Below, piece by piece: positions 7,754 to 31,521 of a stretch of 45,558 nt of DNA. Position 1 is the first letter of the stretch. Every line of letters starts with the position of its first letter. Source of the stretch: a virus; the IMG/VR virus record IMGVR_UViG_3300032156_000022, positions 1-45,558 of that record; one strand, given 5' to 3'. A program made the translations under genes and the position numbers. The notes under the pieces were generated by a model, which saw only the letters and a program-made list of their open reading frames with translations, made no database searches and was not told where the DNA came from.

Positions 7754-8692
7754 ATGACAATAGACCAAGTATTAGAGAAGGCGTTTACGTCCGCTTCTCT
7801 GGCGAGCGGTGGTCTGCTTAATCCAGAGCAAAGCGCAAGGTTCGTGCAGGCAATTATTGACAACGCAGTAATCAGTGTTGAGGCAAGACGTGAGCCGATG
7901 AAGGCGAGCAAGAAGCAAATTGACAAACTGACTTTCGGGTCTGCGATTTTGCAGAAACCGACAGCAGTGGGAACGCCTCATACCGTGACGACTGACCCGA
8001 CTGCGAGCAAGGTTACTCTTGACGCACAGGAAGTCATCGTAGCAATTGATTTAGGGTATGACGCACTTGAGGATAGCATTGAGGGGAACAACCTGTTTGA
8101 TACCATTCTTGGGATGACAGCAAAGAGAGTGGCTTTTGATTTAGACCAGTTGATAATTCACGGAGACGCTTCAGGTGGAACAGGAACTTTCCTTGACGTG
8201 TTTGATGGTGTTTTGCACCAGATTACGACCAATACGCACCCCATCGCAGGCGTTACGGGTTGCACGGACGCTAATCTTGCCATTGCGTTGAAGAAACTTC
8301 CGAGCAGGTTTTTCAATAACGAAAGTGAATGGAGATTTTACGTTTCTCATCTTGCCAGACTGAACTATGTGGAATGTCTCGCAGGAAAGAACGTAAACGA
8401 CGCATTTACTCGTTATCTCGTGGAAGCCAAAGAACCGTCATACAACGGTATCCCTGTTCGCAAAGTGGGCGCAATTAAGACCTACGATGTGACTGGCGGT
8501 GGCGTGAATGGTTCTGATGGTATCTTGATAATGCCGAAGAACATCGTGCTTGGTGTTCATCGTGACATTATGTTTGAGTTTGAGAGAAAGCCGAGAGCAA
8601 GGATAATTGAAGTTACGATGACGATGAAAGCCGATGTGAAGTTAGAGGAAGAAACAGCGTGCGTGAAGATTACTGGTTTCAAGCATACTTAA
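7754..8692 (+). CDS. Major capsid protein
   Basis: 312 residues with a strong ribosome site (GGAAGGAG, 8 nt upstream). The sequence has the layout of HK97-fold major capsid proteins: an N-terminal helical segment (GGLLNPEQSARFVQAI), then a strand-rich region with PTAVGTPHTVTTDPTASKVTLDAQEV, a helix with AFDLDQLIIHGDASGG, and a C-terminal strand-rich part with PRARIIEVTMTMKADVKLEEETA. Position directly after the protease/scaffold genes supports the call. It would form the icosahedral shell. No long N-terminal delta domain is visible, consistent with a separate scaffold. Confidence 0.85.
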   Translation: MTIDQVLEKAFTSASLASGGLLNPEQSARFVQAIIDNAVISVEARREPMKASKKQIDKLTFGSAILQKPTAVGTPHTVTTDPTASKVTLDAQEVIVAIDLGYDALEDSIEGNNLFDTILGMTAKRVAFDLDQLIIHGDASGGTGTFLDVFDGVLHQITTNTHPIAGVTGCTDANLAIALKKLPSRFFNNESEWRFYVSHLARLNYVECLAGKNVNDAFTRYLVEAKEPSYNGIPVRKVGAIKTYDVTGGGVNGSDGILIMPKNIVLGVHRDIMFEFERKPRARIIEVTMTMKADVKLEEETACVKITGFKHT

Positions 8693-9445: not shown

Positions 9446-9694
9446 ATGAGACAACGTTCCCCGAAATATCTTTTACTGTGGCAACCAGACTGGTTAAAGA
9501 CCCGATACGAGAAGGACGGATTATCAACCTATCAGATAGCAGAGATAGTCGGGTGTGACCAGTCGTCTGTTTTTTATGTAATGAGAAGGTTGGGAGTCAA
9601 GAGGAGAAAGTATACGATGAGTAGAATGGCAAGACTTGCGAGACAGAAGGGTGGAATTGCACGTCAAACAAAAAAAGGAGAAGGCAAATGCTGA
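9446..9694 (+). CDS. Small helix-turn-helix DNA-binding protein
   Basis: 82 residues. Residues ~25-50 (GLSTYQIAEIVGCDQSSVFYVMRRLGV) form a clear helix-turn-helix, with the recognition helix SSVFYVMRRLG; the pattern resembles HTH domains of resolvases and homing-endonuclease-associated modules. The C-terminal third is strongly basic (RRKYTMSRMARLARQK). As the first gene after a consensus promoter it may be a regulator of this block. No Shine-Dalgarno sequence can exist if transcription starts at the ATG. The stop overlaps the following gene by 7 nt. Confidence 0.68.
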   Translation: MRQRSPKYLLLWQPDWLKTRYEKDGLSTYQIAEIVGCDQSSVFYVMRRLGVKRRKYTMSRMARLARQKGGIARQTKKGEGKC

Positions 9695-10269
9695 CCAAAG
9701 AAGCGCAGGAAAAAATTGACCTAATGGTCAAGAAGATGGGTGGAATTAAGTTAGACGTTGGAGCAGGAGATAATATTCAAGCAGGGTTTATCGGGATGGA
9801 TATGCGTCCGACGAAGAACGCAGACATCGTGCATAACGCAGAGGTCACGCCTTATCCATTACCATCAGACATTTGCCATATTATAATTTGCAGTCATCTT
9901 GTGGAACATCTTAATCCGAGCAGGATGATAGACATAATGAACGAATGGTGGAGACTGTTGAAAGAGGGTGGTCAATTGTGGCTATCAATGCCATACGCAG
10001 GTTCATTTGGGTTCTGGCAAGACCCTACGCATATCAAGACGTGGAACGAAGCAACCGCAACATATTTTGACCCATCGCAATTCCTTTACAATATCTATAA
10101 ACCTAAACCTTATAAAATAATCCGTAATTCTTGGTTTGAAGTTGGCAACCTTGAGGTTGTTCTTGAGAAGTTGCCAGAGGCACACGGAGTTGTAACGCCA
10201 CAGGGATACGACAATATCCAGAAGGACGAAAAGAAGAAAAAGAAAAATGGGAAAACCAATAAGCGTTGA
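9688..10269 (+). CDS. SAM-dependent methyltransferase, class I fold
   Basis: 193 residues with a good ribosome site (AAAGGAG). Motif I is LDVGAGD at 22-28, followed by GMDMRP (acidic residue that would bind the SAM ribose) and a CSHLVEHLNP segment like motif IV of the Methyltransf_11 group. The stretch GFWQDPTHIKTWN is seen in small methyltransferases of carbohydrate clusters. The tail is lysine-rich. The substrate is unknown; it is not a recognisable DNA methylase because no catalytic NPPY, DPPY or PC motif is present. With the glycosyltransferase nearby, modification of a sugar or small molecule is plausible. Confidence 0.75.
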   Translation: MLTKEAQEKIDLMVKKMGGIKLDVGAGDNIQAGFIGMDMRPTKNADIVHNAEVTPYPLPSDICHIIICSHLVEHLNPSRMIDIMNEWWRLLKEGGQLWLSMPYAGSFGFWQDPTHIKTWNEATATYFDPSQFLYNIYKPKPYKIIRNSWFEVGNLEVVLEKLPEAHGVVTPQGYDNIQKDEKKKKKNGKTNKR

Positions 10270-10495
10270 GGATATTATCAACATCATTAACACGACGTGG
10301 GAAGGCGTGAACAAAAGTGTGCTTGGTCCTATTATCCGAGAAGATGTAGATGTCAAACATATTGATGATGAGGCGTGGAAGCCGACGCAGAAGATGGCTA
10401 TTATCAATATGGCTTCTTACGACACTTACAAGATAGTGCTTGAGGCACAGTTAAACATCTTAATAAACAGGGGGATTTACGATGGCGAAAAATAA
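10247..10495 (+). CDS. Small hypothetical protein
   Basis: 82 residues overlapping the methyltransferase gene by 23 nt and the glycosyltransferase gene by 14 nt. The sequence is helical with no Cys, signal peptide or membrane segment; it contains MGKPISVEDIINIINTTWEGVNK and a second helix KMAIINMASYDTYKIVLEAQLNILI. I do not recognise the family. The tight overlap suggests coupled translation within the accessory operon. It is supported mainly by its position in a continuous chain of overlapping genes. Confidence 0.5.
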   Translation: MGKPISVEDIINIINTTWEGVNKSVLGPIIREDVDVKHIDDEAWKPTQKMAIINMASYDTYKIVLEAQLNILINRGIYDGEK

Positions 10496-11384
10496 GAAGG
10501 AAGCAGTTGTGAGCAAGAAGAAGGTGCAGGCACAGGCGTTTGGAGTTTATCAACCTACGATGGAAATGCCAGTCAACGAGGACTGGAAGGGATGGGTGAA
10601 GCGGATTTGCATTTGCGTGCCGACCACAGGGCGTGTTCGCATTGAGTGGGTGATGGGTCGGTTCGGGCAGATAGTGCCTTGCAATTGGAGTAACAACGAC
10701 ATCTTCCAATTCTTTGACCAATATAGTCCGATGGGGTTTAACGTAGCGGACGCACGCAATTTCTGTGTGGATTATTCCATCAAAGGGAACTTTCAGTGGA
10801 CATTCTTTATTGACCACGATGTAGTTTTACCTGCCAATGTTTATCTAAAATTGACCGAGATTATGAATATGGTCAAGATAAGCGAAAAGGATGGAAGCGA
10901 AGATAGAAGCAAAGCCATCCCGATATTCGGTGGTCTGTATTACTGCAAAGGATACAAGCCAGAACCGTTGATTTTCAGGGGACGTGGCAATTCCTATTAC
11001 GGTGAATGGAAGCGTGGAGATTTGGTTTGGTGCGATGGTCTGCCGATGGGTTGCACGCTTATTCATAATAGCATACTGAAGGAACTGTATAATTCTTCAG
11101 AGCCATACACAATGCCGACGTTGAATGGACCTCAAGTCGTCAGGCGTGTATTTGATACACCACGTCACGCTTGGAATGACCCTGAAACTGGAAAGTATAA
11201 CCAGAAGGTAGGGACAGAGGACTTGTGTTTCTTTGACCGTTTGAAGGCAGAGCGGATTTACGAGAAGGCAGGATGGAAGAAGTATCAGGATATGAAATAT
11301 CCGTTGCTATGCGACACAGGAATATTCTGTCAGCATATTGACGAGAACGGAACGAGGTATCCTGCAAACGTCGGGATTATTTGA
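10482..11384 (+). CDS. GT-A-like glycosyltransferase
   Basis: 300 residues. After a ~40-residue lead, RICICVPTTGRVRIEWV starts a nucleotide-sugar binding fold; FFIDHDVVLP contains a D-x-D metal-binding motif (D111-H112-D113), and GTEDLCFFDRL (from 244) matches the ED motif that provides the base in GT-A inverting enzymes. DGLPMGCTLIH before it is typical of the acceptor side. No membrane segment is seen, so it is probably cytoplasmic. It would move a sugar from a nucleotide donor to an unknown acceptor (virion protein, host glycan or DNA). The neighbouring methyltransferase and the sulfation genes downstream point to carbohydrate decoration. Confidence 0.75.
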   Translation: MAKNKKEAVVSKKKVQAQAFGVYQPTMEMPVNEDWKGWVKRICICVPTTGRVRIEWVMGRFGQIVPCNWSNNDIFQFFDQYSPMGFNVADARNFCVDYSIKGNFQWTFFIDHDVVLPANVYLKLTEIMNMVKISEKDGSEDRSKAIPIFGGLYYCKGYKPEPLIFRGRGNSYYGEWKRGDLVWCDGLPMGCTLIHNSILKELYNSSEPYTMPTLNGPQVVRRVFDTPRHAWNDPETGKYNQKVGTEDLCFFDRLKAERIYEKAGWKKYQDMKYPLLCDTGIFCQHIDENGTRYPANVGII

Positions 11385-11643: not shown

Positions 11644-11808
11644 ATGAATACTATGACCGAGCAATGGTCATTCACGATAAAACAAACGAATGGTGCGCAG
11701 ATGAAATGGATAATCGGGATTATCATTTACTGCATAATATTGGTTGCGATGTGTTGGTTTTGGTATCGGTTTAAGCAAACGGTAGGTAGAGAGGACGACG
11801 AACTATGA
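11644..11808 (+). CDS. Short single-pass membrane protein
   Basis: 54 residues. One hydrophobic helix (WIIGIIIYCIILVAMCWFW, ~22-40) is followed by a charged tail (RFKQTVGREDDEL). The stop overlaps the permease ATG as ATGA, a pattern used repeatedly here, which supports it being a real gene. A weak AAAGG ribosome site lies ~9 nt upstream. It could assist the permease or be holin-like; the sequence does not decide. Confidence 0.55.
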   Translation: MNTMTEQWSFTIKQTNGAQMKWIIGIIIYCIILVAMCWFWYRFKQTVGREDDEL

Positions 11809-12554
11809 TGACTTGGTTAGTTTTACCAATTGCATTTTGCTGTGAGTTTGTAGACCAGTATCTCGGAATGGGGTTTGGGACGATACTCGCACCAGTGTTG
11901 TTGTTGATGGGATTTAAGCCGATGGAAGTCGTGCCTATTATTTTACTTGAGGAAGTTATCTCTGGAATGACAGGAGTGTTCTTCCATCATAGAAACGGTA
12001 ATTGCGATATGTCTCCGAGCCAGAGACCGTTTAAGATAGCGACGAGAATTACAATATTTACAGTGGTTGGAACAGTTGCAGGAGTTGTTGCGTTTATCAA
12101 CATAGCACAGAGCGCATTAACTGGACTGATAGCGGTCATCGTATTGGCGATGGGCGTTATTATTTTATGGAATAGGAAGAACCAGTTTGAGTATTCTAAA
12201 GCGAGGATTTATACGGTCAGCACGATAGCGTCATTCAATAAGGGTATAAGCGGTGGTGGGTATGGACCTCTAATGATGGGTGGCAATATTCTTTCAGGAG
12301 TTAAGACGAAAGAAGCCATAGCCATTGTCTGTTTTGCAGAGGCAGTCTGTTGCGCTCTTGGGTTCACGCTCTACGCATTTTCAAAGAGCATTGTCTGGAC
12401 GTTAGCACCGTATATCTTGGTGGGTGGATTTTTAGCAGTGCCTGTGGGCGCACGCTTGGTCAGGCAGACAGATGAGACCAAGTTAAAGACTATGGCAGGG
12501 GTTATGATTTTAATACTTGGGACAATTCTACTGTTCAAGACTTTATTGAAATGA
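11805..12554 (+). CDS. TauE/SafE-family membrane permease
   Basis: 249 residues with about seven or eight hydrophobic segments. The family pattern of two related halves is visible: an N-terminal GMGFGTILAPVLLLMGF and a second-half SGGGYGPLMMGGNILSG, equivalent to the glycine-rich loops of TauE/SafE proteins (sulfite exporter family). Members move sulfite, sulfoacetate or other organic and inorganic anions across the cytoplasmic membrane. Full length for the family (~250). A transporter between a glycosyltransferase and a CAP-domain gene in a phage is unusual. Sulfur-related genes (APS kinase, sulfotransferase) lie 3 kb downstream, so a sulfur-anion substrate is a reasonable inference, not shown. 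Confidence 0.78.
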   Translation: MMTWLVLPIAFCCEFVDQYLGMGFGTILAPVLLLMGFKPMEVVPIILLEEVISGMTGVFFHHRNGNCDMSPSQRPFKIATRITIFTVVGTVAGVVAFINIAQSALTGLIAVIVLAMGVIILWNRKNQFEYSKARIYTVSTIASFNKGISGGGYGPLMMGGNILSGVKTKEAIAIVCFAEAVCCALGFTLYAFSKSIVWTLAPYILVGGFLAVPVGARLVRQTDETKLKTMAGVMILILGTILLFKTLLK

Positions 12555-13129: not shown

Positions 13130-13157
13130 TTGACTTTTTAGAGATTTAAGGTATAAT
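13130..13157 (+). promoter_or_regulatory. Sigma-70 promoter for structured RNA / CAP operon
   Basis: TTGACT (13130-13135), a 16-nt spacer and TATAAT (13152-13157). The predicted transcription start is near 13164. Confidence 0.78.
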
Positions 13158-13630: not shown

Positions 13631-15685
13631 ATGAGTATAAAATACTGTGATTTCTTAACTGGAAGTGATACCACAGGAGACGGAAGCGCAGGTAATCCTT
13701 ATCAGACTATTGATAAAGCGAGTGAAGGTTTGACTGGTGGAGACGAAGTTAGAGTAGCGAAAAGTCCGAACCATACTGCATTGACAGGAACGTTGTCTTT
13801 TGTAGAAGGGAGTAACGCTGTTGTAGGTAGTGGAACTAATTTTACAGGAGAATTAGCGCAATATGATTTTATTATTGGTGCAGACGGTCTGTGGTATATG
13901 GTTAATACCATAACAGATAATACGCATTTAACATTAAGCAGGAAATATACAAACGTAGATAGTGCTGACCAAACAATTCAGAAGGTAGGAGTTACTGATG
14001 TTGGTTCAGTTAGGCAGACCCTTATCGTAAGTGGGAGCAGTGGGACAGTTCATTTAGTAATTAGCGGTGGATGGGATTTAACATCTGAAACCCAAACAGG
14101 AATAACTACGTTTCGTGGCAATGGCAGTATGGCAGTAATAAGAAAAGAGTGCGATACTCGGTTTATCACAATCAGTAAAATTAACTGTTTAAGAGGCGAA
14201 GATGGAATAGTTATGGGGAATGATAGTAACCCGATGTATCTTGAGGCAGGTTGTAACATAAAAGTATTGGATTATATTGGCAATGGTAATCAATATACTG
14301 GTATGGACATTTCTTGCAATCACTATCATTTGGAGAATGTCCAGACCTGCTTCAATAATGATACAGGAGTTAAGTCAAGAGACAGTGTTGGTTCATACCT
14401 TAAAAACCTGATAGCGAATGGAAACACTTATGAAGGATTAGATTTAGATAGGACTCATACTTTTTTAGCCGAAGGTTATGTCATTTGTAATTACAATGAT
14501 ATTTATGGTGTAGCAGGTGGGTGGGGATACGGAACATCAGATTTAACTTTTGATTGTGAGGTTACTGTTTGCCATAACATTGAAGCAGGATTTTATAGCG
14601 GTAGTAGCACAGGATTGTCAATCAAGAAATTAACAGCAAACTATAATGTCGGTTACGGTGTTTATTTTGATTTTTATTTAGATTTCATACGAGGGGATGA
14701 GTGGGAAGCCAATTACAATGGCAAGAATGGTTTTGAATGTTATATCAATGCAGGAAGGGTTGGAAAAATTACTGCAATTGGCAATACATTGAGCGGAATG
14801 TTGATAGGCGCAGGGTGGAACTTCAGTATCGGAGAAGCAATTTTGGAAGATAACCTGAAAGGCGGTCTTTGGCAGTATTTTGAATGGGTAGTGGATGGGT
14901 TTTCTATTGAAAAATTATCAATGAGCGGAAATGGGTATATCTTTATTTCTATTGGTGGCAGTGCAACGTGGACACAAGGTAGTGATGAGGTAACTGAAGT
15001 ATCTTCAGATATTATATGGCGACCTAATGTCGGTGATTTAATACAAGGTCCAGATGGCAATGTCTATGAAATTGTAAGTATTGACACAGTGGGCTTCAAG
15101 TTTGTTTTGATTTCTAATTATGCAGGGACGACCAGTGGTGGTGGTCTTATATTTGCTGAAGATGGGAACGTTCCAAGCCAAAGCAATATAAATTGGTCTT
15201 ACGCTTTCTCGCCATACACAGGATTGCGGATTTCTGATTATAAAGGACAAGGAGCGTATAATTTTTGGTTCTTTGGAAGGTCAATGGTAAATACAGTTGA
15301 GGCAAGGGGTGGAAGCGGAAAATGTTTGCAGATTGCTCCTCGTCCTTACAAAAATAAACTTGAAAGTTATCCTACTTATAGTCTATTGGCTAACTTTCTG
15401 TATCACGAGTTTGATTTTAAGGCAGACGCATTGGTTGAACAAACAGTAGGGATTTATGTAAAAAAGGATAGTGCCTACAACGGTATAGTTCAAGCGAAGT
15501 TAGAGTTTCACGGAAAGTCAATAACGGAGTGGACAGATTTCCTTCCGTCTGTTGCGGACGTATACCAGTTAAAAACTTTGGTAGCCGATAGTGCGAAGAT
15601 TTATGCCGATAGCGTTCTCAAGTTAGTGTTGAGGGCAAAGGCAAGCGCAGGCAATATCTACGTTGACGATATTTCAATAGCATAA
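13631..15685 (+). CDS. Right-handed beta-helix tail protein (spike-like)
   Basis: 684 residues. An N-terminal segment (SDTTGDGSAGNPYQTIDKASEGLTGGDEVRVAK) is the classic start of pectate-lyase-like beta-helix domains. Many ~22-residue coils follow (residues ~60-430), rich in Asn, Gly and aromatic residues. Two segments (~45-115 and ~445-500) look like inserted small domains with 'VVGSGTNFTGELAQYDFIIG' and 'WTQGSDEVTEVSSDIIW' strands. The C-terminal ~120 residues resemble a carbohydrate-binding jelly roll (KADALVEQTVGIYVKKD). Such proteins bind or cut host polysaccharide. No catalytic triad can be assigned by eye. Confidence 0.72.
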   Translation: MSIKYCDFLTGSDTTGDGSAGNPYQTIDKASEGLTGGDEVRVAKSPNHTALTGTLSFVEGSNAVVGSGTNFTGELAQYDFIIGADGLWYMVNTITDNTHLTLSRKYTNVDSADQTIQKVGVTDVGSVRQTLIVSGSSGTVHLVISGGWDLTSETQTGITTFRGNGSMAVIRKECDTRFITISKINCLRGEDGIVMGNDSNPMYLEAGCNIKVLDYIGNGNQYTGMDISCNHYHLENVQTCFNNDTGVKSRDSVGSYLKNLIANGNTYEGLDLDRTHTFLAEGYVICNYNDIYGVAGGWGYGTSDLTFDCEVTVCHNIEAGFYSGSSTGLSIKKLTANYNVGYGVYFDFYLDFIRGDEWEANYNGKNGFECYINAGRVGKITAIGNTLSGMLIGAGWNFSIGEAILEDNLKGGLWQYFEWVVDGFSIEKLSMSGNGYIFISIGGSATWTQGSDEVTEVSSDIIWRPNVGDLIQGPDGNVYEIVSIDTVGFKFVLISNYAGTTSGGGLIFAEDGNVPSQSNINWSYAFSPYTGLRISDYKGQGAYNFWFFGRSMVNTVEARGGSGKCLQIAPRPYKNKLESYPTYSLLANFLYHEFDFKADALVEQTVGIYVKKDSAYNGIVQAKLEFHGKSITEWTDFLPSVADVYQLKTLVADSAKIYADSVLKLVLRAKASAGNIYVDDISIA

Positions 15686-15697
15686 AGGGGGATAGTA

Positions 15698-16183
15698 ATG
15701 GGAAAGATAATTTGGATTATTGGATTACCGTGTTCAGGAAAAACAACCATTGCACAGGCATTAGCGCAGGATATAGGCGCAGAGGTTCTTGATGGAGACG
15801 ATATACGAGGAAGTCAATTTACAATCGGAACGGATACAGGGTTCAGTGAGGAGCAGAGAGAACATCATTTGTTAAGGGTTAATTATATGGCACAGAGACT
15901 TGCAAAACATACGAATGTTATTTGTGCATTTATAGCACCGTTTTCACAGGCACGGAAACGGTTGACCAAAGATTTGCTTGTTTATCTTAATCCACCTGCT
16001 TCAGTTTGTGAACAGCGTGATGTTAAGGGTGATTGGATGAAGGCGAGAAAGCATAGGATTAAAAACTTTACAGGAGTAAGTCAAGAGTTCCAAGCACCAG
16101 ATAAAGATGAACCCTGCTTAAAACTGGATACGTCAGTCAAAACAGTTGCACAGTGTATAGCGGAGATTAAACAATGTCTGTAA
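15698..16183 (+). CDS. cysC: Adenylylsulfate (APS) kinase
   Basis: 161 residues. The P-loop is GLPCSGKT (9-16). DGDDIR (32-37) corresponds to the DGDN/DxIR substrate motif; GFSEEQREHHLLRVNYMA matches the GFS..R..H..RV block; FIAPF equals the usual FISP; CEQRDVKGDWMKARKHRIKNFTGVSQEFQAP matches the family's C-terminal APS-binding block. All main motifs are present, so it should be active. The enzyme phosphorylates APS with ATP to give PAPS, the universal sulfate donor. The length is slightly shorter than typical (~195) because the N-terminal extension is missing. The ribosome site is AAAGGGGGATAGTA. It overlaps the sulfotransferase gene by 10 nt, implying coupled synthesis of donor and transferase. 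No ATP sulfurylase is in the window, so APS would come from the host. Confidence 0.92.
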   Translation: MGKIIWIIGLPCSGKTTIAQALAQDIGAEVLDGDDIRGSQFTIGTDTGFSEEQREHHLLRVNYMAQRLAKHTNVICAFIAPFSQARKRLTKDLLVYLNPPASVCEQRDVKGDWMKARKHRIKNFTGVSQEFQAPDKDEPCLKLDTSVKTVAQCIAEIKQCL

Positions 16184-17460
16184 AGTTTATCATCGTAACA
16201 GGAGAACCGAGAAGCGGAACGTCTATGACAATGGGCGTTCTTAAAGAGTTGGGTGTGCCAGTGTGGGGTTCAGAGAAGATGGATAGAAGCCAAGATAAGA
16301 ACCCTTTAATGAAAAAGATGAGGCAAGCACTCGGTCTCAAAGAACCACAATTATCTGAACAGGATAAGTTGACAATTGCAAAGCGTAAAGAACGAGTTGA
16401 GAAGTTAAATGAAAAGTTCTATGAGGTTGGTCACGTTGTGACACGAGGAATAAATCTTAAAACATTACAAGCACAGGAAGCGAATATCAACAAATCTAAT
16501 GCCTTACCTGCACTTAAACTTATGCACAAAGAAATGATTAAGCAGAAAAGGCAAGAAATTGAATGTCATAATGGAGACGCTGTAAAGATAATAACCACAG
16601 GTTTGCATAATACCGAGTTATCAATACTAAAACAGTCAAGGATTATTTGGTGTTTAAGAAACCCCATCCATATCGCCTTGAGTCAAAAAAAATTGGAAAG
16701 TGGTGAAATCCAAATAGCGCAGGCAGACGAGAAAGACCAGACTTATTGGACATCACCAGAACGAGAGTTTACGCCTGCGAGTTACCTGCGTGGGTCGTCA
16801 AGTATTTTGAGGTTGTTGTTTAATCATCCAGAACTAAAAGACAACATTATCACTGTTGATTTTGAAGATATGCACAATAGTCCTGCCATAGAGATAGCCA
16901 AGATTAACGCTCATCTAAAAATCAACCCAAATCAACAGGTAGTTAATGGCGCAGTTGCAAGCGTAGACCCTCTGAAAAAACGTAGTTCTATTGACCTACC
17001 AATGCCTGCGGATAAACAAATTGCGTGGCAGACAGCAAAAGATGTTTATGTTTTAACTAAACAAAATAAGTTCAATGAGGCGTATTTGAAGTTGAACGAA
17101 TATCGTGCTTATTATGCGCAAGAACAACGGTTTGCTCCGTATTTAGATACGGAAGTTGAAGGCAGTAATCAACCGACGTGGTGGTTTGTGCAGTCTCCAC
17201 AATTATTGAGGCAGATGAAGGATAATCCAAACTTGCGTCAACAGATGATAGATGTCCATAATCAACCTGCGTTTATCAACAATACCTGCGATAAATGTCC
17301 ACTGTATAACAGGTTTGGAGCGCAATATACGGTCAACCGTCCAAGCGAATTAGGCGGTGATTTGACGAGGGCAAAAGTGGACTGTCCAGAGTTAAAAAAA
17401 GAAGTTACTCTTGAGGTATGCCAGAACCATTGGATAAGAGTAAAGAAAAATACGGTGTGA
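16174..17460 (+). CDS. PAPS-dependent sulfotransferase
   Basis: 428 residues. The N-terminal FIIVTGEPRSGTSMTMGVL holds the 5'-phosphosulfate binding loop PRSGTSM (12-18). RIIWCLRNPIHIALSQ (from ~156) matches the 3'-phosphate binding segment 'lRdPrdvaiS' (R162, N163, P164), with DNIITVDFEDM downstream. The C-terminal ~170 residues extend beyond the catalytic domain and carry four cysteines in CDKCPLY ... CPELKKEVTLEVC, a likely zinc-binding site. It should move sulfate from PAPS to an acceptor hydroxyl (sugar or tyrosine). It overlaps the APS kinase gene and sits 1 nt before a tyrosine-rich protein gene. The family is clear; the acceptor is unknown. Confidence 0.88.
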   Translation: MSVKFIIVTGEPRSGTSMTMGVLKELGVPVWGSEKMDRSQDKNPLMKKMRQALGLKEPQLSEQDKLTIAKRKERVEKLNEKFYEVGHVVTRGINLKTLQAQEANINKSNALPALKLMHKEMIKQKRQEIECHNGDAVKIITTGLHNTELSILKQSRIIWCLRNPIHIALSQKKLESGEIQIAQADEKDQTYWTSPEREFTPASYLRGSSSILRLLFNHPELKDNIITVDFEDMHNSPAIEIAKINAHLKINPNQQVVNGAVASVDPLKKRSSIDLPMPADKQIAWQTAKDVYVLTKQNKFNEAYLKLNEYRAYYAQEQRFAPYLDTEVEGSNQPTWWFVQSPQLLRQMKDNPNLRQQMIDVHNQPAFINNTCDKCPLYNRFGAQYTVNRPSELGGDLTRAKVDCPELKKEVTLEVCQNHWIRVKKNTV

Positions 17461-17461
17461 T

Positions 17462-18379
17462 ATGTCTTACGGAATAATTGATGAGCAGTATCCCCAAAGG
17501 ATAGCCATAGTGCTTGGTCCTTGCTTTGGCACAGGGAACGCAGAGTATATGGGATTAAAGGCAGGACAAACACTCACTTTACAACGAATACCTGAAGAAT
17601 GTAACGAGAAACAATTGGCTTTTTCAGAGGATGGAACGAATGTTATTAAATGGAGACGAGACGGAAGCGTTGCTCCGAATAGAATTAAGATGAGGATGAG
17701 GGCAGGTTCAAAATATTCCCAGTTTGGTTATTATACTTATTCGTCGGGTATGTATGCTCAAATGAGGTTTTACATAGACTACGGTAGGGGAAACTATACA
17801 CCATCGTGGGAACGAATAGCACCGACGCAAGCGTTTAATACTGGTGTTAATTTTACTTGGAATAAACTTCAAGCAAATTATTGTTTTTATTGGGGAATGT
17901 ATTACTCCTCTGGTTGTGTTCCGCAAACAGGTATGTATTATCCCTCTTACTATGCACATTATAAATATTGCTATCTACCGAGACAGTATGTTCACTATAC
18001 AGAGAAGATGACTTACCATCCTCGTTATCCTGTGTCTTATTCTACCTATGAGTATTATCAACGTTATCGTTTCAAAAATGTTTTTGAAGCAACGTATAAA
18101 TACTATGGTGGGATTAGTCAGTTTATTTCGGCAATGTTTTTAGGGACTATGCAGATAAACGTTAGGGAGAAGGGAGCAAAGAGGGTTGATGTATTTCCTG
18201 CCGATGGAACGTTTGCAAATATTTACGCATACGAGAATGTTCAAGTTGGAGACCCTGAATGGATGACTTCTCATTACCGAGAACAGTTTTATGCGTCATT
18301 TTGGGACTACGAGTTTATGGCGCAGGATGATGTTTTTGTAGAAGATTATTTGTATTCAATGACAATGTATACAGTCTAA
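17462..18379 (+). CDS. Tyrosine-rich protein, probable virion component
   Basis: 305 residues, of which I count 42 tyrosines (about 14%), mostly between residues 70 and 220 in runs such as YYTYSSGMY, MYYPSYYAHYKYCYLP and YEYYQRYRF. Trp and Phe are also frequent. The C-terminus is acidic around tyrosines (QDDVFVEDYLYSMTMY). No known domain is recognised. The N-terminal ~60 residues (GPCFGTGNAEYMGLKAGQTLTLQRIPEECNEKQLAFSEDG) read as a beta-domain. The gene starts 1 nt after the sulfotransferase and 11 nt precede the giant adhesin. A tail or fiber role is inferred from context; it is a candidate sulfation target. Confidence 0.6.
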   Translation: MSYGIIDEQYPQRIAIVLGPCFGTGNAEYMGLKAGQTLTLQRIPEECNEKQLAFSEDGTNVIKWRRDGSVAPNRIKMRMRAGSKYSQFGYYTYSSGMYAQMRFYIDYGRGNYTPSWERIAPTQAFNTGVNFTWNKLQANYCFYWGMYYSSGCVPQTGMYYPSYYAHYKYCYLPRQYVHYTEKMTYHPRYPVSYSTYEYYQRYRFKNVFEATYKYYGGISQFISAMFLGTMQINVREKGAKRVDVFPADGTFANIYAYENVQVGDPEWMTSHYREQFYASFWDYEFMAQDDVFVEDYLYSMTMYTV

Positions 18380-18390
18380 TAAGGTGACGA

Positions 18391-21300
18391 ATGAAATATT
18401 GGTATGAAGGACAACCTGTAAACTTTCACTCTCAAGCCGATGGTTTTGGGTATTGGTATGAGGGTGCGCCTTATACATTTTATGAATTAGGCGAACCGTT
18501 CTCTGGACTGGAAATCAATGTCGGAGAGGACATTCTCACAGAGGAGTTCTGCCAATATCGTTCACCAGTAGACGGATGGTTTGACCCGAACTGGAAGTAT
18601 TGTATTCGGGTGAGTTATAGTCAGGGTAGTGGTGTGAACCAAGTCAATATACCTTTTACACTTCACTTGTCTCAATTTGTAAGTAATAAACTCTTTGATT
18701 ATATCCGACCTGATGGTATGGATATTGTCATTTGCGATAGTGATGGTGTGACCGTATTAGATAAGCAGTTGATTTACATAGATACTGTTAGGCAGGCAGG
18801 AAAGATTACATTCAAAGCACCTGTTATTGAAACAGGTGTTTTGTATTATTGTTATCTTTATTTCGGGAACGCAAACGAGAAGTCAGCGAACTCTCCGTAT
18901 GTTTGGGATGAGGACTATTTAGCAGTTTATCATTTCAAAGACGACCCTGCACTATACACGTTTAAGGACTTTACACGCTATGGAAGAAACGCCAGAAAGT
19001 TAAATCCTTATAGTCCTGCTTTCTATCCTGCACCTGAATATGGGATAGAAGCAAATCCTCTTTCCGAATGGGAGAAGGGTGTATCACAGGGAGCAAATGT
19101 AGTTCAGTATTCGGAAGTTTACATAGATGATATTTCAGCATTTGAAGGATTAGAGCATTTGTCCTTTATGACACTTATCGGAGACAATACTTACAATGCC
19201 GAGTATACAGAATATAATACAGGGTTTTTCGCCAAGAAGGATAACCTGAATTGGTTGATGTTTGGTATTTTAGAAAATACTGGTTGTCGCTTAATGATAG
19301 ATGGCGTTGAATATAACACTTGGCAAGGGGGAATAAGTGGTGGTGGGACGAACTTCCCTCATTATTATATTGGTAGAGACGGATGGTATCAGAGGTCTGA
19401 TGGATGGAATGGTAGCGGAATAGTCCCATCAAGAACTCAAGCACTGACAGACATCGCAGGTTTAACAAAAGTTGGTTTATTCTTTTTCCCGAATAAAAAC
19501 AGCAGGATGTTTAGGGGTGTGGGGTTTGTTGCCATTAGTAGAATTAAGAGGTCAGAAGAATACTGCACCGTGATTAGGGACACTTATCAAGCAGGTTGGG
19601 GAATAACCGTTCTTGAGTTTATTCCTCAAACATTGGACATCAATGTTCAGGACAATATTATTTCTGAAGAAGAAGCGACACAGGGTAGGGAACTGCTTGA
19701 GTTTGACGTTACCGATGAGCAGATTATCATTGTCAAGAAAGAAGAAGTTGCCACAGGTTTAGTTACTGATGGGGAGACCGAGATATTTGTTGTTGATTTT
19801 GTTGACCCTGATGAGTTCGGTGGCGCAGGCGCAGACCCATTTGACCTACCTTTGGTCAATGAAGATATTGTTATTGAAGATGTCAGCATAAACCAAGAAC
19901 CATTTGACCCTTCCGAATGTCCAGTGGTTTTTGATGGCGTTGAAGTTGGAGAGTTTGACGATATAGCGGATTATATTCTTGCAGAAGATGATTTAGTAAG
20001 ACTGCTTGTTGGCATAGATGGAGAGATTAACGTCTTTGATGATGATGTTGTTGGATATATCACGATTAGTGAATATGTAGAGTTTTTGTTCCCACCTGAA
20101 ATGTTTGCGTCTGAAGATATTACTGTTACAGATTATATGCTATGGTCATTGCCATATATTCTTGGTCACAGTAATTGCGACCTGTTGCTTCATCTTGACC
20201 GATTATATGGTTCAGTGTTCCAAGATAGTGGACGCAATGGATTATCCGTTTATAAAAATGGGACTGTTACTCTTGATACAAGCATAAAGAAGTTTGGAGA
20301 CGGAAGTGCGCTATTCCTGAATGATGGTAATTCATATTTGTATACGTCAAGTCATCCTTCTTGCTTCAACGTTAAAAATATTCCCTTTGTATTTGAAGCA
20401 CGTTGGTATCCGACAGAAACTCCGAGAAATCCTGCCGAGTTCTTCAAGATATTTTGGTCTGGCAATAACAATTTATTCGCACAAACAGAAAATTATAACG
20501 GTCAGTTTGGAGTGCGTGTTGGATTTATCAAAAATGGTGGTGGCAGTAGTTATGGTTGGTATCTCGGAAGTCTATCCTTAAACTCGTGGCATACTTTCCG
20601 TGTTTATAAAGACGCAGGGGATACGTTTTATATTTGGGTAGATGGTAATTATATCGGTTCTATTAACTTTGGCAGTTCGTTACCCGATAATGGCACTGCT
20701 TATATGCGAATTGGTTTGGTGACGACATCTACTGCCTCTGTTCGTTTAGATGAAGTTTACTATGCGCAGAACCTTATTATTCCAAATCCGACTTCCAGTT
20801 ATGCGCCTGCCTCAAGTCCTTACGATGATAATGCAGAGGAAGGTATCGGAGTTGATGAGAGCGTTACTGTAAGCAGGTTTGCTGACCCCACCCTTATTAT
20901 AAATAGAGTTGATACGATTACTGTCACGGAAGTCCAAAATGTAACAGTAAGCAGGGTTATAGATAGGTTTGACACGATTACAGCAACAGAAAATCTCGCC
21001 ATCGTAATTGATAGACTCGTTTCTGTTTCTGACGACATCACTATAACAGAGTATGTTTTAGGTGAAGAAGTCCTCGCATTTCTGTCAAACGACGACCTTG
21101 TAACAGTTGCCGAAAACCTTGAACTTTTTGTAACAGTATACAACCTATCCGTATACGAAAGTTTCCTTATCACAGAAAGTATTTCTGTTATTGATGAGAT
21201 TATAGAAGTCGGAGTCTGCGTAGATAGTGTTTCTATTACTTCAGAACCAGTGCAGTTCGGTTTTGACCCACTGTTGATAGGGGTCTACGAAGATATTTCT

Positions 21301-24300
21301 ATAATTGATGGTGGGATGAACTTATACAATGGGTTATTGTGCGCTTATCGGATGAATGACAACGCAGGGAATAAAGACGTAGCGGATTTCACAGGGCGTT
21401 TACCTGCACAAGCAGTTAGGAACACAAACCTTTTAAGCGTTGCAGGTAAATTGAATAATGCACTCAATGCCACAGGATTTACATATTCTGATTTTATAAG
21501 TTCTATTGGGACAACAAACCTCAAAGAAACAAGTGTTGTAACATTTGCTTTTTGGTTTAAGGCAGAAAGTATATCAGGTGGCACACGAGCATTGGGCGGT
21601 TTGGATGGATATATCGGGGTGGCTTATAAGGTATCTGGCAATATGGCGATATGGAGCGCAGAAGGTCCTTATAGCGTGACTCCTTCTCCCATAGATGGTG
21701 GGTGGCATTTAGCCATAGGCGAGTTTAATAGATATACAGGGAAGAAAACTTTATGGCTTGATGATGTTTACAAAGGAGAGTCGGCTTTTGGAGTGGATTT
21801 AAGAGCCGACGTTAATAAAAAGATAGTCATTGGTAATTATGGCACTGGTTCAAATTGGTATATGAACTCCCCTATGGATTTTTCTGCTGTATGGAAGCGT
21901 GCTTTGACCGCAGGAGAGCGCAGTTCATTATGGAATGGTGGGGTTGGGGTTGAAGATATATTCGCTGAACATAGCACCATCCTTACTACTCTTAATATAT
22001 CAGTTGCAGAAAACATAACAGTTGCAGAAGTTCTCACCAAGAATATAGAGAATACGGTATTTTTTGATTTACCTTTATTGTATGAGAGCATACCTGCTCT
22101 TACCGATGTCCTCGTCAATGTTGAAATACCGATAAATCTGCGGAAGATATACAACGTCTGGTTATTGACCCATTTTGAAGGAAACGGAGTTAATGGGTCA
22201 GCGTTCCTAATAGATAATAGCGCATACAAGAGAGGACCATTAAGCGGTAGTAATGGGAGCATAGATACAAGCACAAAGGTGTTTGGCAAAGCGTCTGGTA
22301 AAGTGAACAATGGTCAAGGATGGTATTTTTTCCCTGCCAATGACAGCGTTGGGCGCATACGAACCAATACATTCTTTTTTGAAACACGTTTTCAAATGAT
22401 AGACACTCCTGCGGAATATTATAACAATGGAGTTTTTTGGTATGTTTGTGAGTCTGGAAACGCTTTCAATAGATTTTATCTCGCCATTGTAATGCAGGAA
22501 ACGACTTGGCAAATTAAATATGGATATATCAATGCGTCGCAGGTAAATGTTCTTGGTAGGGGATTATCCAATATTAACAGGTCAACCATAGACCCGACGA
22601 CTTGGCATACATTAGGTTTCTCAAGGGATGGCGCAGGTAACTTTAGGGTCTTTTTAGACGGAACATTGATAGACACTTATACCCCTGCACCTGTTGATAT
22701 ACTTGCGTCAATAACAGGAAACCTTGAACAAATAATTGGCGGTGGAAATTGGTCAAACGAAAGAGTAGTCGCTCGGTTTGATGAACAGATATTGATATTC
22801 GGAGACCCTGTTAAGACCGCTACTTATACTCCTGCGACTGAAGAATACAACGAAATGCACGGTGACGACATCACCGTTTCCGAGAGCGCAACATTAGAAC
22901 TCGGAGCGTTCTTCCTTCAGGTAAATGTCAATGACGCAATAGCGGTCACGGAAGATAAGACGGTGGAGCGGATAGGGGTCATTGCTCCATTTGAAAATAT
23001 AACTGTATCCGAATATAGAGCGGTATCTTTAGAGGTTCTTAATATAAATATCTTTGATAGTATCAATGTCTACGAGACATTTGCTAATTATGTATCTGTT
23101 CTTAACTTATCTTCAGTTCAAGAGTATGCAGATTTCCTGTGTCATTTCAATAGTCAGCAGTCATCCCATTTTATAGATGACGGAAAACTCGCTCTTTCTT
23201 TAACCGAACTCAATACCGTAATTCTTGACACAGGGACAAAACTATTTGGAGCAGGAAGTGGAAGATTTGATAATGCGTCATACGTTTATAACCCCTCACC
23301 GAGTCCTATGTTTGCAGGAAGCAATAGGGATTTTACTCTTGAGTTTCGTGCAAGATGGGTTAATGCTCCTGTATTCAATGGTTTATTTACCATCTATAAA
23401 GACTCTACAAATTATTTAGGGTGCAGGCACGAACTTGGTGGAAATATCAGATTATTTTTGGTTGTAGATGGGGGTGTAAAGTTATCCACCGCAATAAGCG
23501 TCGGAACTTTATCGTCTGGAACTTGGTATACGATAGAAGTTACAAAAAGCGGTAATACATTTTATATCTTGGTAGATGGGGTCTATAAAGGACAGGCGAC
23601 TGCTTCAGCAGACTTTTTTACTGGAAGTGGTCAGTTGCTTCTTGGGTATGATAGATACAGTGGGAACTTTATTAACGGTGGAAATGGTTATGCGTGGGTG
23701 GACGAAGCATATTATCAAACAGTCTGCGAACACACAACCTCTGACTATACTCCGTTAAACAACGAATACCCGAATGACGTAGCAGACACAATAACAATAA
23801 CAGAAAGTTTATCAGACCTCATTGATGTTCTCAATATATCTGTGGTTCATAATATTACTTTGTCCGAATATGGTTTTCTATTTAATGGTTTTGCAGGCGA
23901 AGTGGATGTTAATGACGCAGTATCCATAGAAGAAACATATCAGTCAAGTGTCCCAATAGATTTTAATATATTTGATGAGATAACCAGTATATCAGAGCAG
24001 TCCGAGGTTGGATTAGACGCTCTCTTTATGGACGTTCTTGAGCCATTCCACTGTCTTATAACGGAATGGGGATACCTTGTAGATTTAGTTATTGAGTTGG
24101 GTGTTGTTATGGAAGCCATCTACGTTAATGAGGACGCAGATGTCTTTTTGAACGACCTCAATATAGATGACGATGACGCAAGCGATGACGTGAACGCACA
24201 AGATAGCGCAAACGTATCGCTTGATGTTCTCGTTCTGGATTATTACGAAGAAATAAACGCAGGGGATTATGATGATGAGTGCGTAGACATTCTTTATCCG

Positions 24301-25611
24301 AGCGTGCAGGTAGATGACATCGTGGTATCGGAGTTCGTTGACGAATATCTTACAAACTGGAATATCGTTGTCAGCGAAAATATCTCTGGCACGGAAGATG
24401 TGCTTGGAGACATTCTTATAGAGGTAAGCGTAGTCAGCAATATAACCGTGACTGAAGAAGTCACGATGACCGACATTATCATTGAAATCTGGACTGTCTT
24501 TGAGGCAGTCACAGTCACAGAAGATTTAAGTATAGACCTGCCAATAGAGACCTTCCGAGTTGATAGCGTTATCGTTGAAGAAAGTATCTTTATGCACGAC
24601 ATCATTATTGAGTTGGGAGTCGTGTTTGAGGATGTTTCTATAATAGATTATCAAGAGTTGGAAGTCTTGCAAGGTATTACCGCACTGGATGACGTTGTTG
24701 TCCACGAATGGGTCAACATCTTTGACATCGTAATTGAACTCGGTATTGTCACGGACGACATCGCAGTTGATGACTCTTTGGTTATCAACCTGCTTATAAA
24801 GGTTGACGTTTTAGACAGCGTGGCGGTTGCGGAGAACCTTGAGACCATCTTGACCGTTCAGGTAGACGTATTTGAAGGCATAAATGCCTCTGAAAACGTG
24901 CTTCTGGAAGTCCCGATAGCAGTAGACCAGAGCGAGGAGATAAGCGTCACAGAGGCGTTCCTGTGCGCTTTACCAGTAGATTTTGCGGTAGGTGAGGACA
25001 TTTTGGTGCAGGAGAGCCAAGAAATGCTCCTGCCGACCCTTATGCTTGACGTTCTTGACCCTTACCATACCGTTGTGACCGAACACGTTGACGTAATTGA
25101 CCTCGTGGTTGAACTCGGTGTGGTTATGGAAGCGTTGGGGGTTCAGGATGAGATAACGCTTTATTTAAGTGAACTATTCGTAGATGTATCGGAAAATATA
25201 GCGATAGATGAGCAAAAAGCAGTTGCGTTGCCGATTATGTATTTGTTCTTCAGCGATGATGTCTTGGTTGAGGACTATGCGCAGGCGCAAAAGACAGTTG
25301 AGAACGTCATCGTAAGCCAGATTTTAACGGTTTCGGAGCAGATAGATGTCATAGTCCCAATAGCAATAGATGTTTTTGAAGCGGTTATAGCGGTATCCGA
25401 GTCATTAACGATGTGGGACATTATCATTGAACTCGGAATAGTTAGCGAGAATGTGGATGTGTCCGAGTTTGTAGAGATAAGGATGGACGCTTGGGGAATA
25501 GAGGTTGCGGAACTTATCACGAGCGTGGAGCAGTTCGTAAATAATATGCCGATTAACTTTGAAGTAGCAGAACAAAGAGGTATTTGTCTCGTAAAAGTTT
25601 CGGGATGGTAA
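18391..25611 (+). CDS. Giant adhesin-like protein with LamG-like domains and acidic repeats
   Basis: 2,406 residues. The N-terminus repeats a YWYEG-x-P motif twice, then residues ~69-200 resemble DUF2341 (DGMDIVICDSDGVTVLDKQ ... YYCYLYFGNANEKSANSPYVWDEDYLAVYHF) and lead into a ConA/LamG-like domain to ~400. Four more LamG-like domains lie at roughly 594-800, 977-1187, 1254-1474 and 1577-1784, each opening like LLLHLD or LLTHFEG and closing with a 'RLDEVYY' or 'RFDEQILIFG' strand. They are spaced by, and followed to the C-terminus by, ~20-residue repeats with consensus D-x-I-x-V-x-E. LamG-like domains bind glycans; the repeats probably form an extended acidic shaft. No signal peptide is seen, consistent with assembly on a virion. 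Probably a tail or capsid fiber. Confidence 0.7.
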   Translation: MKYWYEGQPVNFHSQADGFGYWYEGAPYTFYELGEPFSGLEINVGEDILTEEFCQYRSPVDGWFDPNWKYCIRVSYSQGSGVNQVNIPFTLHLSQFVSNKLFDYIRPDGMDIVICDSDGVTVLDKQLIYIDTVRQAGKITFKAPVIETGVLYYCYLYFGNANEKSANSPYVWDEDYLAVYHFKDDPALYTFKDFTRYGRNARKLNPYSPAFYPAPEYGIEANPLSEWEKGVSQGANVVQYSEVYIDDISAFEGLEHLSFMTLIGDNTYNAEYTEYNTGFFAKKDNLNWLMFGILENTGCRLMIDGVEYNTWQGGISGGGTNFPHYYIGRDGWYQRSDGWNGSGIVPSRTQALTDIAGLTKVGLFFFPNKNSRMFRGVGFVAISRIKRSEEYCTVIRDTYQAGWGITVLEFIPQTLDINVQDNIISEEEATQGRELLEFDVTDEQIIIVKKEEVATGLVTDGETEIFVVDFVDPDEFGGAGADPFDLPLVNEDIVIEDVSINQEPFDPSECPVVFDGVEVGEFDDIADYILAEDDLVRLLVGIDGEINVFDDDVVGYITISEYVEFLFPPEMFASEDITVTDYMLWSLPYILGHSNCDLLLHLDRLYGSVFQDSGRNGLSVYKNGTVTLDTSIKKFGDGSALFLNDGNSYLYTSSHPSCFNVKNIPFVFEARWYPTETPRNPAEFFKIFWSGNNNLFAQTENYNGQFGVRVGFIKNGGGSSYGWYLGSLSLNSWHTFRVYKDAGDTFYIWVDGNYIGSINFGSSLPDNGTAYMRIGLVTTSTASVRLDEVYYAQNLIIPNPTSSYAPASSPYDDNAEEGIGVDESVTVSRFADPTLIINRVDTITVTEVQNVTVSRVIDRFDTITATENLAIVIDRLVSVSDDITITEYVLGEEVLAFLSNDDLVTVAENLELFVTVYNLSVYESFLITESISVIDEIIEVGVCVDSVSITSEPVQFGFDPLLIGVYEDISIIDGGMNLYNGLLCAYRMNDNAGNKDVADFTGRLPAQAVRNTNLLSVAGKLNNALNATGFTYSDFISSIGTTNLKETSVVTFAFWFKAESISGGTRALGGLDGYIGVAYKVSGNMAIWSAEGPYSVTPSPIDGGWHLAIGEFNRYTGKKTLWLDDVYKGESAFGVDLRADVNKKIVIGNYGTGSNWYMNSPMDFSAVWKRALTAGERSSLWNGGVGVEDIFAEHSTILTTLNISVAENITVAEVLTKNIENTVFFDLPLLYESIPALTDVLVNVEIPINLRKIYNVWLLTHFEGNGVNGSAFLIDNSAYKRGPLSGSNGSIDTSTKVFGKASGKVNNGQGWYFFPANDSVGRIRTNTFFFETRFQMIDTPAEYYNNGVFWYVCESGNAFNRFYLAIVMQETTWQIKYGYINASQVNVLGRGLSNINRSTIDPTTWHTLGFSRDGAGNFRVFLDGTLIDTYTPAPVDILASITGNLEQIIGGGNWSNERVVARFDEQILIFGDPVKTATYTPATEEYNEMHGDDITVSESATLELGAFFLQVNVNDAIAVTEDKTVERIGVIAPFENITVSEYRAVSLEVLNINIFDSINVYETFANYVSVLNLSSVQEYADFLCHFNSQQSSHFIDDGKLALSLTELNTVILDTGTKLFGAGSGRFDNASYVYNPSPSPMFAGSNRDFTLEFRARWVNAPVFNGLFTIYKDSTNYLGCRHELGGNIRLFLVVDGGVKLSTAISVGTLSSGTWYTIEVTKSGNTFYILVDGVYKGQATASADFFTGSGQLLLGYDRYSGNFINGGNGYAWVDEAYYQTVCEHTTSDYTPLNNEYPNDVADTITITESLSDLIDVLNISVVHNITLSEYGFLFNGFAGEVDVNDAVSIEETYQSSVPIDFNIFDEITSISEQSEVGLDALFMDVLEPFHCLITEWGYLVDLVIELGVVMEAIYVNEDADVFLNDLNIDDDDASDDVNAQDSANVSLDVLVLDYYEEINAGDYDDECVDILYPSVQVDDIVVSEFVDEYLTNWNIVVSENISGTEDVLGDILIEVSVVSNITVTEEVTMTDIIIEIWTVFEAVTVTEDLSIDLPIETFRVDSVIVEESIFMHDIIIELGVVFEDVSIIDYQELEVLQGITALDDVVVHEWVNIFDIVIELGIVTDDIAVDDSLVINLLIKVDVLDSVAVAENLETILTVQVDVFEGINASENVLLEVPIAVDQSEEISVTEAFLCALPVDFAVGEDILVQESQEMLLPTLMLDVLDPYHTVVTEHVDVIDLVVELGVVMEALGVQDEITLYLSELFVDVSENIAIDEQKAVALPIMYLFFSDDVLVEDYAQAQKTVENVIVSQILTVSEQIDVIVPIAIDVFEAVIAVSESLTMWDIIIELGIVSENVDVSEFVEIRMDAWGIEVAELITSVEQFVNNMPINFEVAEQRGICLVKVSGW
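23780..25590 (+). repeat. Acidic ~20-residue repeat array (fiber shaft), C-terminal part of the giant protein
   Basis: Successive units with the core D-x-[IV]-x-V-x-E, for example DNITVTE-like and DDIAVDDS, plus a longer subunit containing D[IL][IV][IV]ELGVV. DNA copies are diverged, so this is an old protein-level repeat and not a recent tandem expansion. Confidence 0.75.
24031..24126 (+). repeat. Conserved EPFHCLITEWGY cassette, copy 1
   Basis: A 32-codon unit shared with 27632-27727 in the other giant gene. Only two codons differ in meaning while 18 differ silently. Confidence 0.8.
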
Positions 25612-31062: not shown

Positions 31063-31521
31063 ATGCCATTCAATATGGACGCAGGAGCAAAGAGTATACT
31101 GGAAAATCTCACGACGATATTGAGGAGCGACGCTACATTAAAATCTCTTGTTAATTATGATAGCAAAGCACCAAATATCCGACGTGGATTTCAGACGGAA
31201 GGCGAGTGGAAAATCCTTTTGGTTTATTATTTTCAACCAGAAGTGATTATGGAAGCAGTGGATTTTTCTCCTGACTTCCGTGTATTGCCAGTGATAGTGA
31301 ATATGTGGTCAAAGCAGAATGATTTAGTGCTTTACGACATAGGGGAGAGAGTCATTGAGTTGGTAGACGGACAGGAGTCAGGATTAACGAAGGCAGGGAA
31401 GAACTTTATTTACTGTTGCACCTATGACGGAGCGGTGGTTGAGTTACAAATGGACGCTCAACGTCAAGCGTATAACCGAGCGTTACGGTTTCTAATAACG
31501 TTCAGAAAGGAGACGACATAA
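31063..31521 (+). CDS. Probable tail terminator protein
   Basis: 152 residues, located between the gp10-like gene and the tail-tube gene, where the tail terminator normally lies. An N-terminal helix (SILENLTTILRSDATLKSLV) precedes alternating strands (WKILLVYYF; LPVIVNMWSK) and a helix, as in lambda gpU-like folds. No strong sequence signature is visible. Its stop shares a base with the next ATG (TAATG). Confidence 0.6.
   Translation: MPFNMDAGAKSILENLTTILRSDATLKSLVNYDSKAPNIRRGFQTEGEWKILLVYYFQPEVIMEAVDFSPDFRVLPVIVNMWSKQNDLVLYDIGERVIELVDGQESGLTKAGKNFIYCCTYDGAVVELQMDAQRQAYNRALRFLITFRKETT

Follow-up and report, generated by a model that had tools for sequence, protein, structure and literature searches.

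A putative phage sulfation module: an APS kinase gene overlapping a sulfotransferase gene in the accessory region of an uncultivated phage

Introduction

APS kinase (CysC) makes PAPS, and sulfotransferases spend it. In bacterial sulfation clusters, such as raxST with raxP/raxQ in Xanthomonas and nodH with nodP/nodQ in rhizobia, a PAPS-making enzyme is encoded together with a sulfotransferase for a secreted peptide or glycan. The gene pair described here resembles these clusters. However, the Rax and Nod clusters, which are carried by chromosomes or plasmids, include an ATP sulfurylase, whereas our pair lies in a phage virion block and no ATP sulfurylase was recognised in the fragment. Homologous APS kinase domains with the same active-site residues are also found in bifunctional SAT/APS kinases and PAPS synthases (2gks, PAPSS1), but the kinase studied here is stand-alone, without an ATP sulfurylase domain.

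Phage cysC has been read as a gene of assimilatory sulfate reduction (PMC10914622, PMC9529941). It is reported from lakes and deep-sea sediments as a phage APS kinase gene, the kind also found here, carried by many uncultivated phages and expressed in lakes. PMC10914622 mentions sulfotransferase zero times, whereas our kinase gene overlaps a sulfotransferase gene in a fibre block. The function of phage sulfotransferases has been called unclear (PMC10580990). Sulfotransfer_3-type enzymes, to which ours is comparable, are encoded by the Synechococcus phages S-SRM01, S-SCSM1 and S-SKS1 and by OM43 phages (PMC10580990), and in S-SRM01 the gene lies among glycosyltransferase genes. The cultured cyanophages differ from our locus in that an APS kinase is missing from the ~6 kb around the annotated sulfotransferase, and our enzyme is not detectably related to theirs at the family level.

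Phage cysC and phage sulfotransferases were known separately beforehand. In the open-access papers searched, a paired, virion-linked cassette of the two was unreported, and we regard such a cassette, which is sometimes fused, as provisionally new. The pairing, the fusion and the links to fibre and glycosyltransferase genes join cysC to the sulfotransferase and change the prediction, in that PAPS would be spent on sulfation. Phage cysC is usually taken as an aid to sulfur assimilation; it now seems more like one component of a gene set by which surfaces of the phage or the host are chemically modified. If this is true, the fibres or glycans of many uncultivated phages would be sulfated. No report of such a virion modification was found in the open-access papers searched, and its consequences for adsorption, receptor use and host recognition would be testable.

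Genomic Setting of the Gene Pair

The window, that is, the whole stretch of DNA analysed, is a linear virus record of IMG/VR of 45,558 bp and represents a fragment. According to PHROG matches, it carries a phage backbone with a head maturation protease, capsid, connector, tail tube, tape measure and central tail fibre. The capsid gene ends at 8692 and the connector block begins near 29382; between them lies an accessory region of ~20 kb, which encodes a methyltransferase, a glycosyltransferase-2-like protein, a TauE permease, a fibre, CysC, the sulfotransferase, a Tyr-rich ORF and a giant laminin-G protein. The features are as follows.

7754..8692, + strand: major capsid-type protein, the upstream backbone anchor (phrog_1623, E 1e-70)
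9688..10269, + strand: SAM-dependent methyltransferase (PF08241, 24.2 bits, cut-off 21.2; homolog in sister phage L099)
10482..11384, + strand: glycosyltransferase-2-like protein (L099 homolog, E 4.5e-118)
11805..12554, + strand: TauE/SafE-family permease (PF01925, E 7e-32), 3.1 kb upstream of CysC
13631..15685, + strand: 684-aa protein of the tail fibre/spike type, immediately preceding CysC (PHROG tail-fibre families, E down to 6.5e-9, residues 52-160)
15698..16183, + strand: CysC, predicted APS kinase, 161 aa (PF01583, 2gks match, residue mapping to M. tuberculosis CysC)
16174..17460, + strand: predicted sulfotransferase, 428 aa (PF13469 and PF00685 over cut-offs)
16174..16183, + strand: overlap of the two reading frames, exactly 10 nt, read in the sequence
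17462..18379, + strand: Tyr-rich orphan, 305 aa, starting 1 nt after the sulfotransferase stop
18391..25611, + strand: LamG protein, 2406 aa, with four concanavalin/laminin-G-type domains (PF13385, E 2e-24, 4 stretches)

The protein encoded at 10482..11384 had zero Pfam matches over the cut-off, and its homolog in L099 matched PF00535 with E 8e-5 and 23.0 bits, under the cut-off of 23.3. The TauE/SafE permease is a possible transporter of sulfur anions, and the 684-aa fibre-like protein is a candidate substrate or scaffold for sulfation. The 2406-aa LamG protein, which has a weak homolog in L099, is probably a fibre or adhesin.

Relatives of the capsid protein (L095-L100) are 79-56% identical to it. 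In the sister phages found through this gene (56-61% identity), genes for GT9, GT2 and methyltransferase proteins follow the same capsid gene. Comparison of L099 with the window showed that the genes that flank the pair, at 12551 on the upstream side and 18391 on the downstream side, are conserved in order. The sister phages, L099 included, lack homologs of CysC, the sulfotransferase and the Tyr-rich protein, and these genomes therefore do not point to a conserved partner. Because L099 keeps the flanking gene order without the pair, the cassette appears to be an insertion into a phage genome rather than an accident of assembly. The sequence-only reading had placed the pair inside a virion gene cluster, and this is borne out by PHROG matches on both sides and by the synteny with sister phages.

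The APS Kinase

CysC matched the Pfam profile PF01583 with E 9e-32 (110.6 bits; cut-off, 21.1), and its PDB match was the SAT/APS kinase 2gks (E 1.3e-25). The NCBIfam profile TIGR00455 was covered at positions 18-183 of 184, nearly its full length. However, the score of 116.1 bits is under the equivalog cut-off of 138.7 bits, and the protein should therefore be regarded as a diverged APS kinase.

The residues that hold the ligands have been named from structures of M. tuberculosis CysC (PMC4373884). They are the P-loop Lys456, the Mg/phosphate ligands Ser457/Ser458, the catalytic Asp480, the phosphosulfate ligands Arg483 and Arg497, the adenine-stacking Phe492 and Phe576, and Arg559, Lys562 and Cys556 of the lid (PMC4373884). 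By motif and alignment, K15, T16/T17 and D34 of the window protein correspond to K456, S457/S458 and D480, and R37, R54, F49 and F124 correspond to R483, R497, F492 and F576, respectively. In the lid, R107 and K110 correspond to R559 and K562, and a cysteine (C104) is also present. All of the checked side chains that bind APS, ATP and Mg in the M. tuberculosis enzyme are kept. Judged by these residues, the window protein is convincingly predicted to be an APS kinase with an intact active site. The earlier description of CysC as complete-looking holds for the active site, whereas the low TIGR00455 score marks the protein as diverged.

In the phylogenetic tree, CysC was placed with phage APS kinases that bear a C-terminal NMNAT-like domain, a weak grouping (SH-aLRT 82) that also includes marine Euryarchaeota proteins of similar make-up, which are the nearest cellular relatives. 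The marine archaeal kinase genes adjoin a gene of the inositol-monophosphatase family that, by eye, looks like CysQ, a PAP phosphatase.

Fusions of an APS kinase with a short NMNAT-like (HxGH) domain were observed at L002 3033-3851, L010 985-1824, L011 4001-4900, L016 3995-4840 and L255 5959-6873. Such fusions are found in phages and marine Euryarchaeota. The PDB matches of the NMNAT-like domain were NMN adenylyltransferases, and ATP sulfurylases were not among them. As a guess, this domain, or the separate NMNAT-like gene that adjoins many phage APS kinase genes, would be a minimal ATP sulfurylase, and the fusion protein could be a compact PAPS synthase.

The Sulfotransferase and the Gene Overlap

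The sulfotransferase exceeded the cut-offs of PF13469 (E 4e-7, 30.9 bits vs 27) and PF00685 (E 1e-5, 25.6 bits vs 22), with a Pfam alignment that spans residues 6-258. The two PAPS-binding motifs that had been pointed out by the sequence-only reading were found as stated, namely the 5'-PSB (phosphosulfate-binding) loop GEPRSGTSM at residues 10-18 and LRNPIHIALS at residues 161-170; VDFEDM is located at 228-233. In an alignment of 20 divergent sulfotransferases, the 3'-phosphate-binding R162 and S170 were invariant, and G15 of the phosphosulfate loop was nearly so. The extra C-terminal part of the protein carries Cys372, 375, 404 and 416.

Single-sequence searches of phage and plasmid collections and of viral and genome contigs found no close relatives, and the two loci hit by a nucleotide pattern that encodes GEPRSGTSM were unrelated. 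The AF2 model predicted without an alignment had a pLDDT of 32. When 17 distant sequences were supplied, the model was weak overall (mean pLDDT 54, pTM 0.45), with core segments at 70-90. The nine best PDB matches of this weak model were structures of tyrosylprotein sulfotransferases (TPSTs), with E from 1e-4 to 1e-3 and TM-scores <0.42, and its best viral match was the S-SCSM1 sulfotransferase. These predicted-structure matches would support the assignment to the sulfotransferase family and say nothing on the substrate. The window protein is likely a PAPS-dependent sulfotransferase, and an orphan.

The coordinates confirmed the 10-nt overlap (16174-16183) that had been claimed for the two genes. 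From this arrangement we infer that their translation is likely coupled.

Kinase-Sulfotransferase Pairing in Other Phages

On the kinase side, we fetched 80 viral loci with CysC-like genes. PF13469 was present in 16/49 APS-kinase-bearing viral records and in 1/48 control records (Fisher p 7e-5), the controls being capsid-related records that were unmatched for habitat and size. On the sulfotransferase side, a viral family defined by one family alignment led to another 80 loci. Adjacent CysC and sulfotransferase genes, for which the sequence-only reading had proposed a search of viral databases, were frequent here. A CysC-like gene was located at ≤4 kb in 67/80 loci of the family and in 0/80 controls, and in 46 of those 67 loci it lay immediately 3' of the sulfotransferase gene; near-copies inflate these pairing counts, and the seeds of the family came from kinase-fetched loci, which biases the choice of subfamily to pairs. 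PF01583 exceeded its cut-off in 37/45 records of the family, compared with 0/48 controls. The neighbours in the 80 loci included a GT9-like gene (64 loci; likeness to GT9 judged by comparing profiles, with 93% probability), a tail fibre gene of the S74 chaperone type (55 loci) and an NMNAT-like gene (50 loci).

Direct profile comparison gave no link between the window sulfotransferase and this family, and because our enzyme is outside it, the evidence from the cassettes reaches the window by analogy. Many or most kinases of the 80-locus family match only ~3-110 of the 152 PF01583 positions and have no counterpart of the Lys and Phe of the lid, which leaves their APS kinase activity uncertain.

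Pairs of other kinds were also found. In the tail cluster of L002, an unrelated phage fragment, CysC overlaps an ORF (GFMRTGTS) that is sulfotransferase-like but scores below the Pfam cut-off. In L343 (2630-3808), a single protein of 392 aa has a sulfotransferase-like N-terminus (PF00685, E 6.5e-4, under the cut-off) and an APS kinase C-terminus (PF01583, E 1.8e-43), and its gene is flanked by genes for the major head protein and for head closure/neck. FkbM-like methyltransferase and GT9-like genes were noticed downstream of it. Genes for a PIG-L deacetylase and sulfotransferase-like proteins stand beside the kinase gene in L010 and L016, with the deacetylase genes at L010 4572-5186 and L016 3245-3940. 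Deacetylation precedes the N-sulfation of glycans, and these phage gene sets are reminiscent of that order.

In a further kinase-seeded set, our detection picked out a sulfotransferase-like ORF at only 3/13 loci with the canonical FTG motif. Kinase-sulfotransferase pairing in phages is common, not universal. The earlier claim of a dedicated donor-plus-transferase pair is strengthened by co-occurrence far above the controls, by the L343 fusion and by the conserved cassette with tail fibre genes, with the caveat for a dedicated donor that no ATP sulfurylase was recognised in the window.

APS-kinase-like genes without a sulfotransferase were seen near NADAR-type genes in L004 (5080-6507) and L008 (4565-5741), a sign that the CysC-like kinases of some phages may have a different role. 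Three phage-labelled CysC records, MT839805, OQ572406 and MT838634, were set aside, as their neighbouring genes look bacterial.

A Putative Sulfation Module

We consider it fairly probable, with considerable room for doubt, that CysC and the sulfotransferase form a phage sulfation module whose target is a fibre of the virion or the glycan on it. In the first step, CysC would phosphorylate the 3'-OH of APS to give PAPS, as is expected from its family and the checked active site. We assume that the ATP sulfurylase of the host supplies the APS. No ATP sulfurylase was present among the family matches of the scanned window proteins (45.6-kb fragment), and the window has no NMNAT-like nucleotidyltransferase. 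Because no ATP sulfurylase was recognised, APS would have to come from the host or from genes beyond the fragment. With a kinase of its own, the phage would lift the supply of the PAPS donor during infection.

In the second step, the sulfotransferase would transfer the sulfuryl group of PAPS onto an acceptor, as its family and the checked PAPS-binding residues suggest. The gene neighbourhoods point to the adhesion apparatus of the phage as the likeliest acceptor in the third step, either a fibre or a glycan that would be added to the fibre through the glycosyltransferase and methyltransferase genes, which lie in this accessory region too. A host surface glycan would be the next likeliest acceptor. 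By analogy with the other cassettes, a virion component is a plausible target. The sequence-only reading had suggested receptor mimicry, superinfection exclusion or defence evasion as the purpose, and we found no specific evidence for any of them.

Alternative Explanations

The ORF after the sulfotransferase gene raises another reading, in which a sulfotransferase of the TPST/RaxST type acts on the tyrosines of an adjoining surface or adhesion protein. The 305-aa ORF contains 42 Tyr (13.8%), while the maximum in the other ORFs of the window is 6.1%, and none of the 2601 ORFs of >=150 aa in the fetched loci reaches 10% Tyr. The ORF had no family match in Pfam, PHROG or NCBIfam and no relative was found, and no diversity-generating repeats were detected near it among repeats of >=45 nt. 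The likeness of the sulfotransferase to TPST1/2 consists in the nine best fold matches of the weak model, the PRSGT sequence of the PSB loop and a glutamate, E34, whose distance beyond R13 of the PSB loop, 21 residues in a weak alignment, equals that of the TPST1 Glu. We take the TPST glutamate at this position to be the catalytic base.

However, the model is poor and TPSTs fall in the same broad fold family as our enzyme, so that the matches do not fix the substrate, and phmmer found no sequence relation to TPST1/2. The tyrosine surroundings are also unlike TPST sites. Only 12/42 Tyr have D/E within 2 residues, and the densest 100 residues of the ORF have a net charge of +4. In addition, a Tyr-rich neighbour occurs at none of the other sulfotransferase loci seen. 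Sulfation of tyrosines in the adjoining protein is unlikely on this evidence. A phage operon in which a kinase, a TPST-like enzyme and a Tyr-rich virion or surface substrate would form one translational unit is speculative, and we give it the same low probability.

The published view of phage cysC (PMC10914622, PMC9529941) would have CysC, which is predicted to be an APS kinase, boost the assimilatory sulfate reduction of the host, with the sulfotransferase being incidental. This is improbable for our locus. PAPS reductase (CysH, PF01507) is missing from the window fragment, and PF01507 was found in 1/45 sulfotransferase-family records and 1/27 kinase records, which are also fragments. The near absence of PAPS reductase favours a donor role over a reductive one. 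The sulfotransferase is strongly linked to the kinase and is fused to it in L343, and the genes are located within a virion block, not among metabolism genes. The partner of these phage kinases is far more often a sulfotransferase than a reductase.

The kinase and its P-loop partner might instead move a group other than sulfate from another nucleotide-linked donor. The cytidine diphosphoramidate kinase of Campylobacter is a CysC-like kinase that acts on a non-APS donor. Many viral relatives of our kinase are diverged and accompanied by an NMNAT-like nucleotidyltransferase, and some phage APS-kinase-like genes adjoin NADAR-type genes instead of a sulfotransferase gene. However, the window CysC keeps F49, F124, R37 and R54, which hold the adenine and phosphosulfate of APS, and its partner keeps PAPS-type motifs. 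The nearest cellular relatives, in marine archaea, are encoded beside a CysQ-like gene. We give a non-sulfate donor little chance.

That the pair belongs to a bacterial chromosome, through an assembly chimera or contamination, which the sequence-only reading had named as a refuting condition, is very improbable, for although sister phages lack counterparts of CysC, the sulfotransferase and the Tyr-rich protein, same-orientation phage genes flank both sides, L099 keeps the order of the homologs of the 12551 and 18391 genes, the GC content of 0.39-0.41 equals that of the neighbours and CysC groups weakly with phage kinases, all of which indicates that the genes are phage-borne.

Other Observations in the Window

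A promoter-like site, TTGACT-16-TATAAT, is present at 13130-13157, before the fibre-CysC-sulfotransferase block; it is a consensus match only (11/12).

Two head-gene ORFs, at 71-2227 and 2188-6450, contain about eight copies of the motif KGG.GSGNFGH.GR.GE.GGS, which belong to a 77-nt repeat family and are perhaps linkers between modules. The minor-head-type protein encoded at 71-2227 has a zeta-toxin-like kinase domain at residues 512-668 (PF06414, E 3.5e-25). The adjacent genes at 31521-32105 and 32136-32654 are near-duplicates of a tail-tube-like type with Ig domains.
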